From assembly GCA_031763025.1 (NCBI GenBank), contig JASSKH010000012.1:5427397-5491396 (forward strand): a DNA stretch of 64,000 bases, read 5' to 3'. This stretch comes from Macrocystis pyrifera. Lineage: Eukaryota; Sar; Phaeophyceae; Laminariales; Laminariaceae. Below the pieces are notes generated by a model that was not told the origin of the DNA, made no database searches, and saw nothing but the letters and a program-made list of their open reading frames with translations. Numbering within the stretch: position 1 is the stretch's first letter; each line of letters begins with the position of its first letter. Made by a program: the position numbers and the translations under genes. This document shows, piece by piece, positions 51,601-60,600 of this stretch.

Positions 51601-54600
51601 GAGAGTGAGTCGCGTACTCGCAGAACGACCGGTGCAGAACATGCCAGAACTCCCCCCTTGTAAAGACGGAATCTTTGCGGATGAGGCCGGTGTATCTCCC
51701 CCAGCATGGTCATTGCCACCTTCGTGTGCCCGGCTGCTTTGCGGTGCAGGCCCTCGTCTTCCACGTAGCCCTAAAATGAGGGCGGGAGGGGTGAGGGGAA
51801 TAATATCTTTAGGAGGGGGCGTGGGGGGGGGGGGGGGGGGGGGTACTCATTATCGTGCATGGCCGTAGTCGTGTGACCATCGACCCTCGCATCCCTACAA
51901 CGCCGGGACGGAGCACGTCGGGTTTTGACCGACCAGGCAGACATTGCTTGCACCAAGCGCGAAGCGAAACGTGAGGTGTTCGGCGAGTCGCCTGAAGGGT
52001 GAGCTGCATCCTGCTAAGAACCGCTTTTGAGGCGGATTTTCTTGCATATGGATGACAGCGTCAATGAATTGATTTAATTTCTGGTGTGGCCACTTCCAGA
52101 GACAGCAGTGGGGTTACTATGTAACCGCCTCGTGGGTGCCTCACCATATACACACTACGCGATACGATCATCCCCCTTGTGCGGAGTAAAGGTTCTCTCC
52201 CCACAAAAATGATCTGTAACTTGACCGCCAGCCGCGGTAACCGCCAAAACAAAAAAAAAAAAAAAAAAAAAAAAAAAAAAAAGGTACCCTAGCCGTCTAG
52301 CTCACGCAATGAGAGGCGTGTTCTACAGCGTCGTCGCCAACCGACGCCAACCCAACCCAACCTATATATACCAGGTATACCATATAGGGGGGGGGGGGGG
52401 GGTGTACTCGATAGGAGAGATGTACTCGATATCATGCATGGCCGCAGTCGCATGACCGTAGACCCTCGCATCCCTCCAATGCCGGGACGAGGGCAGGTCG
52501 GGTTTTCACCGACCAGGCAGACATCGCTTGCACCGAGCAAGCGCGCAGCTCCGTCAGGTCGCGGGCAAGAGTCGCATCAAAAGGTTGAGCCGAACCCGAC
52601 TATAAGCCGCCGTGTGAGGATGGCGGCGTTGAGGGGGCGGGGGAGGGGGAACTACCCAAGGGGGCAAACACCGCTAACGCGACGGTAGACATGGTTGATC
52701 TCGAGTCACATCAGCGCCCTTTCCTATGGTCCAAACCGTCTCGCCCCCCGCCCCCCTCCCTCAATGGCTTGAGAAGAAACGTCTCGAGAGGGATGCGTGG
52801 TCACTGGCCAAATGACTTAAGGCAAGTACAAAATGAGTACGACCCCCCCCCCCCCCCCCCCCCCCCCCCCCCCCCCCCCCCCCCCCCCCCCCCCCCCCCC
52901 CCCCCCCCCCCCCCCCCCCCCCCCCCCCCCCCCCCCCCCCCCCCGCCCCCTCCCATCCTTTCTCGCTTCCTTCCCTCGCACCCCCCTTGCCCTCCAGAAA
53001 ACAAGAAGAAAAAAAAAAAAACGTCCCCGCCGGAGGTATTCGTATATACGGACATGGCGCTAACCTGCCATCGCTTCTCAAAGCCCGTCATGATCGCTCC
53101 GTCCATGAAGTTCGTTCGAGACTGCGCATACTCGCCCAATAACATCTGCATTTCGTCCTGCAGTAGCATGTTTAGGACGGGGCGGGGGGGGGGGGGGGGG
53201 GGGGGGGTATACTCGATATCATGCGTGGCCGTAGTCTTGCGACCATAGACCCTCGCATCCCTGCAATGCCGGGACGGAGCACGACGGGCTTTCACCGACC
53301 AGGCAGGCATTGCCAGCAGCAAGCTCGAAGCGCCGTGAGGTGTTGGGCGAGTCGCATGAAGGGTGAGCTGCATCCTACCAAGAACTGCGTGTGAGGCGAA
53401 CTTGCATATGGATGACAGCTTCAATGGGTTGATTTATTCTCCGGTGTGGTGTGGCCACTTCCAGAGGCAGCAATGTGACTACTATGTAACTGCCTCTTGG
53501 GTACCTTACCATAAACACAAACGTGATACGATCAGTTCCCCTGTGCGTAGTCAAGGTTATCCACCCCGCGCAGATGATCTAACTCGACCACCAGCTGCGA
53601 CCGACCGCCGAAAAAAACAGAAAAAAAACGGTACCCTGGTTGTTTAGCTCAAGTGGTGAGCGGCATGTTTTATAGCGTCGGTGCCAACCGACGCCAACCC
53701 AACCTACATATAATATATACGGGGGGGGTACTCGATTTCATGCATGGCCATGGTAGTGTGAAAAGGGGAGGGGTGTACTCATTTCATGCATGGCCGTAGT
53801 CGTATGACCATAGACTCTCGCATCCCTACAATGCCGGGACGGAGCACGTCGGGTTTTCACCGACCAGGCAGACATTGCTTGCACCAACCGCGGAGCGAAA
53901 CGTGGGGTGTTCGGCGAGTCGCATGAAGGGTGAGCTGTATCCATCATACCGGTAACCGCTTGCGAGGCAAACTTTCTTGCATATTGATGACAGCGTCACT
54001 GACTTTACTGGTATTTACTTTTCGGTGTGGCTACTTCCAGAGGCACCAATGGGATTCCTATGTAACTGCCTCGTGGGTGCCTTACCGATGTGTTGCTTGC
54101 TTTAGTCATTTGATCATTGCCCACGCATCCCTCTCGAGCGGGGGCACCGTTTCTACTCCCAACATGTGGGCGCTCACTACGCGTTTTCCAATATGTTACA
54201 TTGAAAACGTTTCGCTCAGCTAATCCCTTTCCTGTTTCGCCTTTTGTGCCCACCATCTACATCTCCTGCAAGTAGGAGAGCGATCGTTTGCTTTGCTACT
54301 ACGGGCGGGGGGGGGGGGGGGGGGCAAGGGGGAGGAGGCATAAGTGGGGGAGGGGGGGTGAGAGTGGGGGGACAAGGGATGCGAGTCTTCCATCACCAAA
54401 AAAGGTGTGGGGGGGGGGGGGGGGGGGGGGGGGGGGGCGTACTCATTGGTTGCTTGCCTTAATCATTTGACCATTGACCAGGCACCCCTTTCGAGACGGG
54501 GCACCGTTCCTACTCCTAATAGAGACACCTCCAACAATTGGGCGCTCATTACGTTGTTTCCATATATTACATAGAATTTTTTTGCTAATCTTATCCCCTT

Positions 54601-57600: not shown

Positions 57601-60600
57601 TTATACTTCTCTACATCTACTGCTATTTCACCGAACTTCCTCTGGATATCTTTTATCGTATTCTTCGACTCTGGGGGCATATGTATGTTTCCCAAGAAGT
57701 CATATTTCGCTCCCCGCTCCCCTGGAATCTTAATCCATATGCTTTCGTCGAATTTAGTGTCTTTGATCACCTCTATTATGTCACACAGGTATTCTTTGAC
57801 TAGGAACCCCACACCCCCCGCCCCCCTATTCTTGCTATTCTGTCCCTTCCTCTTTTTCCCTATCCATGCGTGCTCTCCAACTTTGGATCCTATCTCCCTC
57901 CTTCTTTCTCCCTCCCACGACTCTTGGATTCCCACTATGTCTAGGTCGCGCTTACTTACTTCTTGTGTGTGTGGGGGGGGGGGGAGGAAACTTCACCAGA
58001 TATACATAATACACCTGGTATATAAAAACGTATATACAATATACACAATATATACACATCAATCCGTCCCTAAATATAAAGACCTTTCGCATACTAATAT
58101 TCAATCAAAACGTTCCTCATGTTTAGGGACAGAATGGTACATGGTATACATTATATAGAATACAAGAGCTTCGCATGGGTGCCTGCCGGCACCCATGCTC
58201 CGGATAGGGAAATATACCTCAGTGCCAATTCGTGATTTTACTTTTTTTAGCAGTATTAATACGCCATTCGATCTTATAAATAGTACGAACATGATGATCT
58301 GATCAGGTCAATGCCAAGTGACGCAGGAAAAAGGCAATGCCGAGTTTTCAGTTCTCAGCTTTGTCTCACTTGCATTTACTATTGACCAACTTTCACATTC
58401 AGGATTTTTTTTTGCGTTGTTTCGTTTTTTTTTCAGCGATCTCTGAAGCCGAAAAATCAGAACCGTCTACTATTATAATGGGGCAGGAAACCATCGATAC
58501 TATTGATCTTTGTCCTGGAGGGGGCAGAAGTCAGCTCAGTTCTGAGAGGTTTATCACGTTTCTCAGAACTGAGATTACTTGCATTTTGTGGACCATAGTA
58601 CTGCTGCCCTTTATCTGCCCAGTTGCCAAGTAGTACCCCATACCCACGCCGAAGTATCATACCAACCTATCTACGGCGAGTTGTACCTACTGCCAACGGT
58701 GCTTGTGCAGCAGAGATGGCCTCTCATATGCACATGAAAGCGATAGCAGCAGTAGCAACAGCAGCAGCAGCAGCACAACAGCACCATTGCTGCTGCTGCT
58801 GTGTGCAGACGCAGCCGCAACATCAGCAGCAGCACTACCGAAGCAGCAGCAGCAGCAGGAGCAGACAACATGTCAGCTTGCAGCATCCGCCCAAATTACT
58901 GCGAGTGAGTGCAGGACCCGTTACGCGTATTTTTACCAACCAGTATACGCGCATTATCTACACTGGTATGAAATACTCCATCATGACCACAGGCAGTAAT
59001 CGCAGCATATATTCCGAGATGCTGCTAGTAGGAGCAGTATCAAACACCTGATACCTGATACTTGGTACGTGATATCGATCGGCAATACAGAACAACCTGA
59101 CAACCGCAAAATACACTGCTAACATTTTTTGCTGAATTCTCGGTGTGAACCCCGAATTCAGGTCGGATACACGTATAGCACACGCAGCACAATATCCACA
59201 GCACCACACAACCCCGATATACTGCCAGTACTCGCAGTGGAAGCAAACAGTCTCGAACCCTCGATTACCTCCTCCAGTAGTAGTGCTCGCCGAAGTAACT
59301 TGTGACGTGTTTTCACCAGAAAATGGTAAGGCGGACATCTTATCTTGCAGTAGTAGCCGTATACCGGTACCTGGTAACGAAGGATCGTATCTTAAAGCGG
59401 GACTGTATGAAATAGTATCTTAAATTTCTTTATTTAGTACCAGGTAAACAGTAGTCCCCGGTGGCTTGGTAGGTGGTCCGCGAGCCTATCAAGATCAATT
59501 TCGTGAGTTCGAGTCTCACCGAGTGAATGCTCGTAGGGACTTTTTCTTGCATAAAATTGATTAGCGGAAAGCGCGAGAGCGCGAGTTAGCTGTACATTCG
59601 ATGAAAATCGACGAGCAGTGGGAATGCTGAACCCTATGCGCGATAAAAACTAAAGGCACGTACCGGGGGGAGAGAAGGGACGACACCTACCTGTGACCAC
59701 GGCTTGTCCAGAAGATCGTCGAGGGTAAACCTCCTACGAGTGGGCTGGAAAGTAAAAGTGATGATGAAAAAAAAAAAAAAAAAAAAAAAAAGATACCTGG
59801 CAGCTGGATATGATTTTATAAGAAACTAAGAAAGCTTGAAAAAAGTGAAAACCGTCTGCTGTGAGTACGACCGATTAAGTGGTTGAAACTCAAGTTTGGA
59901 AGCTGCGTTATTGCGTGATACGTCAGACACGCTCATCGGGCGCGCTTGTTATGGATATTTGGTTTTGCTTTGTGCATCTTCCAAGTAGAATACCTCTGAA
60001 CTACTACTACTACTGCAGCATGCTGTACTGTTGCTGCCGTAGTATTAATAGTACTCGTATTTCAATGCGCCTCCAGAGATCAGACCTTGCAGCAGCAGTA
60101 GACAGTCCAGGCATGTACGACCACCTGTATGATATCCTCCGATGTGATTGGTCGGTTTTTCTTATCGACCACACTCGGTCGAATTCATACTCTCCAACAA
60201 CCTCCATCCCGTTCCTCCGGCGAAAACAAATGACGTGCCGATTTTTATCCAACGATCTGGTAGCAAGAGCGGCGCGATACCCCGGGAAGGCGCGTGTAGT
60301 CGACTCGCGAAGAGAGAGGGGCAAGGGAAGACAGCCACCGAGTAAGGCAAGACCGAGGGGGTCGAACAGGCCGATGGCGGCCCGCAAACCAAAGGAGTCA
60401 GGAGACTAAAGGAGTCGGGACTATAAAGCGGTAGCATCAGCAAGGCCGAGAATCGAACCTCGGATAGGAAAGAACTACAATAATAATACAATAAGATCAA
60501 GTCTGTCTCTCTTTGCGGAGCAACAACAGCGAAACAAATCTCCAGGAATACAACAAGATCAAGTCTGTCTCTCTTTGCGGAGCAACAACAGCGAAACAAA

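Follow-up and report, generated by a model that had tools for sequence, protein, structure and literature searches.

What puts a long run of C beside so many retrotransposon copies in the giant kelp genome? The question is raised by a 64,000-nucleotide stretch of Macrocystis pyrifera DNA (contig JASSKH010000012.1, positions 5,427,397 to 5,491,396; hereafter the window), in which a long interspersed nuclear element (LINE) and an abundant element of ~500 bp, resembling a short interspersed nuclear element (SINE), have a common 3′ end terminating in GAGTAC and followed by C runs. The original prediction, made from the letters of this DNA, took the C run to be an unusual RNA tail. We find that nearly all sampled copies share one orientation relative to a C run and sit at its 5′ edge in the sense direction; that interpretation changed because a C run is also present upstream of the start, and we consider it probable that this LINE/SINE-like pair targets poly(C)-poly(G) tracts.

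C runs on both sides of the elements

The LINE copy in the window and the duplication that flanks it are located as follows.

54438..57968, minus strand: LINE copy, 5′-truncated in the endonuclease region, its reading frame in several pieces
57969..57984, minus strand: target-site duplication, 5′ copy, C12-ACAC
54405..54437, minus strand: target-site duplication, 3′ copy, C29-ACAC

The ends of this copy, 57968 and 54438, were defined by eye from the duplication, since C12-ACAC on the 5′ side and C29-ACAC on the 3′ side bound it. Its 3′ end, GAGTAC(G) at 54438-54444, is followed in the sense direction by C29 (54409-54437).

The run after the 3′ end was surveyed in the window and in a systematic sample of 200 kb (20 stretches of 10 kb); homopolymer lengths are approximate throughout, the giant kelp assembly having been made from PacBio reads (PMC10498591). 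A run of at least five C begins within ~30 nt of the end in 27/31 SINE and 20/21 LINE copies, or 47 of 52 ends in total (two further matches with an internal end being excluded), against a background of 4.8%. C runs do follow most ends of both elements, as had been claimed, whereas the description of these runs as often 20–150 nt long is too strong: 13 of the 52 have at least 20 C, 21 have at least 15, and 41 fall between 5 and 30. The longest count, 98, was limited by the ~100 nt that were read, the actual run being C102 (52843-52944).

For the region before the start, flanking sequence was fetched for 39 SINE copies (the best-scoring, the window's own excepted) and for 20 of the 40 scored LINE copies, to which nine further LINE copies, from the window and elsewhere, were added. 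We left out L033 and L038 (N-masked), L042, L085 and L086 (duplicates of other loci), the LINEs L051, L056, L058, L060 and L068 (start beyond the fetched stretch) as well as the second of the LINE pieces at L065 and L066. Nor did we use L001, which is the window copy, or L004 and L007, whose start is outside. The final set comprises 34 SINE and 24 LINE copies, with the SINE start placed at a conserved head motif, GGGTTGGCG, ~20 nt inside a variable AT-rich leader. A run of at least six C is present within 40 nt upstream in 23/24 LINE and 31/34 SINE copies, 54/58 in all, against 298 of 10720 background positions (2.8%). Runs of the other bases are rare upstream of these 58 copies (G 0, A 0, T 3). 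The window and sample give a similar picture, with a C run within 60 nt upstream of 22/29 SINE and 16/21 LINE copies (38/50; background 3.8% in the sample and 7.8% in the window) and a G run upstream of one of the 50; two further copies lie at an edge, the count includes old copies with blurred starts, and four of its copies are also among the 24 LINEs. The pair is target-specific in the sense that nearly all insertions, 54/58 in one set and 38/50 in the other, are at one type of sequence. A simple poly(C) tail as the full explanation is rejected on the strength of these 5′ runs.

The run as part of recognisable target-site duplications

Where a LINE copy has a 5′ run (23 copies), 0–10 bases separate it from the element, and over all pairs the bases that follow the 5′ run recur after the 3′ run more often than expected by chance. 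The summed match is 93 nt over 53 pairs, compared with 26.4 ± 6.7 for permuted pairs (maximum 60 in 5000), and a match of at least 4 nt past the run is found in 11 of the 53, where permuted pairs give 1.0 on average and 6 at most. Examples, written 5′/3′, are C12-ATATCCGAACT/C10-ATATCCGAACT in L039, C9-GAAAGCGCT/C9-GAAAGCGCT in L087 and C21-TCCTC/C25-TCCTC in L050; other bases recurring after both runs are TCCCCCCT in L046, GACGTCC in L003 and ACCCG in L015. The window copy is not among the 11 because its start as set by the script is 3 nt off. In some of the remaining pairs the run directly abuts the element, and any duplication would then consist of C alone. We conclude that the C run belongs to the target-site duplication in those copies where one is recognisable.

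Apparent preference for long runs, and evidence against it

When sampled insertions are divided by the C runs available in the 200-kb sample, the ratio (×1000, and meaningful only in relative terms) rises from 1.6 for C4-5 to 30 for C6-7, 140 for C8-9, 300 for C10-14 and 654 for C15-19, and is 407 for runs of at least C20. The target run lies behind GAGTAC-like letters in 18 of 54 insertions, compared with 17 of the 103 runs of at least C10 in the sample and with the 4.9% of random positions at which such letters occur upstream by chance; these target runs are probably located behind older copies of the LINE or SINE. Of the 11 copies whose duplication is at least 4 nt long, five have runs that agree in length within 2 nt (permutation 0.03), a weak result as a test of equal lengths.

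Several observations weigh against the reading of long C runs as targets. The 58 copies are the best-scoring ones and not a random set, and four of them, L055, L037 (with its duplicate L042), L069 and L077, have no upstream run of at least six C. The duplication beyond the run is shorter than 4 nt in 42 of the 53 pairs. Lengths of the 5′ and 3′ runs are uncorrelated (rho −0.29 for 30 SINEs, 0.12 for 23 LINEs); the mean length difference in the 11 copies with a recognisable duplication is not small (permutation 0.20), and agreement in the other 42 pairs is no better than in shuffled ones. Two targets, L039 and L072, allowed comparison with empty sites. The occupied L039 site reads TT-C12, whereas the 17 paralogues of this target that lack the SINE (16 fetched, plus L024) have a T run followed by C3-6 in 14 cases and by C2 (L090) or C1 (L024 and L088) in the others, before ATATCCGAAC-like letters. 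For L072, the C6 that follows the SINE is present in all three paralogues without it, a point in favour of a C run as target; the 5′ flank is foreign to the repeat, which makes this not a simple insertion.

The repeat that received SINE L039 is dispersed, with a T-run/C-run tract, and is represented at L024:8575-8740 (130 candidates, 40 scored). Another dispersed repeat, the one at the L072 site, has a native C6 at L016:970-1150 (minus strand), with further copies in L014 and L022 and 1594 candidates in the genome.

SINE L039 may have chosen a member of its target family whose run was longer from the outset; alternatively, the run lengthened at insertion or later. Because the L039 paralogues have short runs and the 5′ flank of L072 is foreign to its repeat, the long run as original target is likely and not proven.

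Alternative explanations

Growth of the run could be general. On such an account a short C run, or a pyrimidine tract ending in C, would be enough for the enzyme, and both copies of it would lengthen by slippage at or after insertion, long runs being a consequence. The short runs of the L039 paralogues, the C6 in those of L072 and the lack of correlation between run lengths are what it would predict. We nevertheless regard it as unlikely: a third of the insertions are in runs that probably lay behind older family copies already, the length of the 3′ run shows no trend with a proxy for age (rho −0.07, p 0.61, 52 ends), and preference per available run climbs to C15-19, although growth after insertion could mimic this last result.

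The C run might instead be a genuine tail at the RNA 3′ end, whether templated or added, comparable to the poly(A) of L1. The regularity with which C follows the 52 ends would be in keeping with this, as would the slightly longer 3′ runs of the LINEs (median 19, against 16 on the 5′ side; p 0.07). A tail, however, does not place a C run upstream of the start, sometimes with target bases between run and element; the 3′ runs of the SINEs tend to be shorter than the 5′ runs (9.5 and 13.5; p 0.15), and the 3′ run of L072 equals the C6 of its three paralogues. We think this improbable. Recombination or segmental duplication between C runs, as the main route by which copies spread, can be set aside almost entirely, as duplicated loci do share flanks (L037/L042 and L084/L085/L086) but, with duplicates removed, the flanks of the 58 copies all differ, and varied 5′ truncation points right after C runs, together with short duplications, fit target-primed insertion.

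A model for insertion at poly(C)-poly(G)

The simplest account of the targeting of C runs is target-primed reverse transcription that starts where a G run ends on its 3′ side. The LINE endonuclease would nick the G strand at this point, and the G-ended 3′-hydroxyl would prime reverse transcription of the RNA from its GAGTAC(A/G) end. Priming may be aided by pairing between the G run and C residues that the transcript gains by reading into the C run behind its parent copy, and a second cut, in or just past the run, would duplicate it. The SINE would use the LINE protein in trans by means of the shared tail. Two C runs would remain after every insertion, both usable as new landing pads, and chains of elements and the spread of C runs would follow from this.

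Chains are seen in the window, where the elements follow one another head to tail:

53776..54086, minus strand: older SINE copy, directly upstream within its chain
53208..53719, minus strand: SINE copy of ~500 bp, preceded in the sense direction by C8 behind the 3′ end of the older copy
53184..53207, minus strand: C24 following this SINE
16215..16930, minus strand: head-to-tail chain of SINE (16930-16411), C14 (16410-16397), LINE 3′ pieces (16391-16332 and 16314-16246) and C34 (16248-16215)
48730..50038, minus strand: chain of LINE piece (50038-49176), C92 (49176-49085) and SINE (49082-48730)

We propose more tentatively that one C run serves as landing pad, as complement of the primer and, once copied behind the inserted element, as what is in effect the tail in the following round. 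The target would then double with every insertion, and this positive feedback may have built the head-to-tail chains and seeded poly(C) over the kelp genome, and perhaps those of brown algae generally.

The common 3′ end

54439..54510, minus strand: LINE 3′ tail common to the SINE by consensus alignment, with terminal GAGTAC
54484..54497, minus strand: predicted tail hairpin 1, consensus GUCUC-GAAA-GGGAU
54460..54473, minus strand: predicted tail hairpin 2, consensus UGGUC-AAAU-GACUA

The last 130 nt of 28 LINE and 39 SINE copies were compared, consensus against consensus. The tails, common over ~70 bp, align with a local score of 66, whereas 2000 dinucleotide shuffles average 21.3 and reach 42 at most; with GAGTAC removed the score is 55, against a shuffle maximum of 41. 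The LINE and the short element have a common 3′ end beyond chance. The alignment claimed in the original prediction is upheld by these scores, the words that it listed for the tail occur in the order given, with small differences, and the shared tail is present in the LINE consensus. That the LINE has a short non-autonomous partner sharing its 3′ end, in keeping with known pairs whose LINE supplies reverse transcriptase in trans, also stands; the part that does not is the C run as simply the tail of the RNA, given the run upstream.

Both tails are predicted to fold into two hairpins at corresponding positions. The first is GUCUC-GAAA-GGGAU in one consensus and GUCCC-GGCAUUGUA-GGGAU in the other, and the second UGGUC-AAAU-GACUA and UGGUC-AUAC-GACUA. 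Identity between the LINE and SINE consensus is 19/20 in the columns of the hairpin stems, compared with 38/63 in the remaining columns, and the sole stem difference replaces a U-G pair by C-G. The folds of the single sequences are weak and unexceptional (z −1.2 and −0.56), a point against the overall reading; the two-hairpin structure is plausible and not proven.

The shared 3′ region doubles as coding end, because the LINE stop codon lies within the terminal AATGAGTAC, leaving ~4 bases of 3′ untranslated region. The encoded C-terminal end of the window LINE is also present in the protein relative P0001, and VVNG stands at the extreme C-terminus in four of six aligned proteins (P0001, P0003, P0013 and P0024, with overall identity to P0001 of 40–62%). 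P0033 does not have this C-terminal VVNG, P0014 stops short of that end, and seven further proteins do not extend to it. In P0121, P0123 and P0124 the tail frame continues into proline-rich letters, as would be expected if C-rich DNA follows their GAGTAC. Many SINE copies carry a terminal tandem repeat of their last 18 nt (ATCTCTCCTATCGAGTAC), for example at 20921-20948, 22379-22406 and 52403-52430, possibly a trace of slippage or of a re-start at the 3′ end.

Class, relatives and abundance

57435..57992, minus strand: stop-to-stop frame holding part of an APE-type endonuclease domain (Exo_endo_phos, E 1.6e-5, narrowly above the cut-off); its first codons fall in the upstream flank of the LINE
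55175..56470, minus strand: reverse transcriptase frame (RVT_1, E 6.2e-32), with brown-algal relatives
54443..55174, minus strand: C-terminal frame with a Cys/His cluster (CPCGK...H...C), whose relatives P0001 and P0122 end in KASNK; it continues through the shared tail to a TGA stop

With an RVT_1 domain, an endonuclease resembling apurinic/apyrimidinic endonuclease (APE), 5′ truncation and a target-site duplication, the LINE is an APE-type retrotransposon without long terminal repeats. The endonuclease match is weak and partial in the window copy, and reaches 5.2e-7 in the Ectocarpus relative P0030. The nearest named protein relatives are from Ectocarpus and, for the C-terminus, from the brown alga Sphacelaria rigidula. 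Among solved structures R2, L1 ORF2p and others match the reverse transcriptase, and these matches do not tell the clade; within Ectocarpus, RTE-X is the LINE group with the most copies, according to the text available for PMC12477816, and the kelp LINE may belong to it. Relatives of the pair in other species were found as proteins only, with none at the DNA level in the genome and viral contigs searched. P0017, filed under a metagenome-assembled genome of Hyphomicrobiales, is 92% identical to the kelp LINE reverse transcriptase across half its length and is probably kelp DNA in a bacterial bin.

We call the short element SINE-like because an RNA polymerase III origin was not found. Its head gave no tRNA gene in five copies and no Rfam match at the gathering score in four, and the first ~230 nt of one copy contain no A or B box at up to one mismatch; a decayed or unusual promoter is possible.

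A first search of the whole genome (537,376,219 bases in 223 contigs) turned up 3185 candidate LINE tails and 5833 candidate SINEs, 40 being scored in each case. Both families are widespread. They cover 1.0% (LINE) and 1.5% (SINE) of the 200-kb sample, and the window, at 9.9% and 7.8%, is richer in the pair.

Runs of at least C10 that stand at the end or start of a family copy, or behind GAGTAC-like letters, number 24 of 103 in the sample and 33 of 64 in the window. The pair accounts for a substantial minority of the long C runs, about a quarter in the sample. The claim of the original prediction that the pair is the source of many long C/G homopolymers thus holds for a minority.

Other repeats are present in the window and elsewhere. 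At 45287-45395, 50039-50142 and L008:756-863, SINE and LINE copies are interrupted by a separate short repeat whose inverted ends resemble GGTCCTGTTAACTATGGACC; it looks like a small inverted-repeat DNA transposon. A minisatellite of 32-bp units (~25 copies) occupies 8613-9441, and (GTA)n is found at 340-737.

Comparison with known elements

Pairs with a shared 3′ end, and LINEs specific for microsatellites, are already known. The closest by description is RTEX-N1_Ec32 of Ectocarpus, a non-autonomous element of ~600 bp with more than 6000 copies whose 3′ end is common to the autonomous RTE-X LINEs RTEX-1_Ec32 and RTEX-2_Ec32 (PMC12477816). Like the kelp element it belongs to a brown alga, is very abundant, shares its 3′ end with LINEs and has a 5′ part of unknown origin; the original prediction's belief that no pair of this kind had been described was mistaken in this respect. 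In the parts of that article available, however, no C run or target preference is met, and the word 'homopolymer' is absent from its main text.

The LINEs of the RTE clade and their SINEs (Bov-B/Sauria, and the SINEs of legumes and horse), as treated in the available sections of PMC13295347, also have a shared 3′ end that finishes in simple sequence, the duplication opens with a base that agrees with that of the 3′ repeat, and a stretch of one base lies near the cut site. The pairing proposed here between G run and C residues resembles this match of 3′ repeat and first duplicated base. The difference lies in position: in those elements a T stretch lies ~10 bases upstream of the duplication, whereas in kelp it is a C run, itself included in the duplication, that stands upstream of 54/58 sampled copies. 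Microsatellite-specific LINEs, such as Togen at (TG)n and some HERO families, likewise have a simple-repeat target, but the accessible text of PMC4640811 places them in groups with a restriction-like endonuclease; the kelp LINE is APE-type, its target is a mononucleotide C run, and a SINE-like partner uses it too. The RTE elements of Lepidoptera, in what is available of PMC2887409, have a short 3′ untranslated region and are associated with simple repeats, and these stand in the element's 3′ end and not, as in kelp, on both sides and within the duplication.

No C-run-specific element or C-run targeting was found in the open-licence PMC text searched. One published match of 'poly-C' with a LINE term proved to be the terminal repeat of a DNA transposon.

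According to the portion available of a 2026 paper, the site-specific elements among APE-type LINEs occur only in the Tx1 and R1 clades (PMC13295347). Specificity of a LINE/SINE-like pair for a mononucleotide run would bring in a further type of target, and would join tail and target in one sequence. It would also explain in concrete terms how some of the long C/G runs in the giant kelp genome arose, and the targeting of C runs is directly testable in population data of this well-sequenced kelp.

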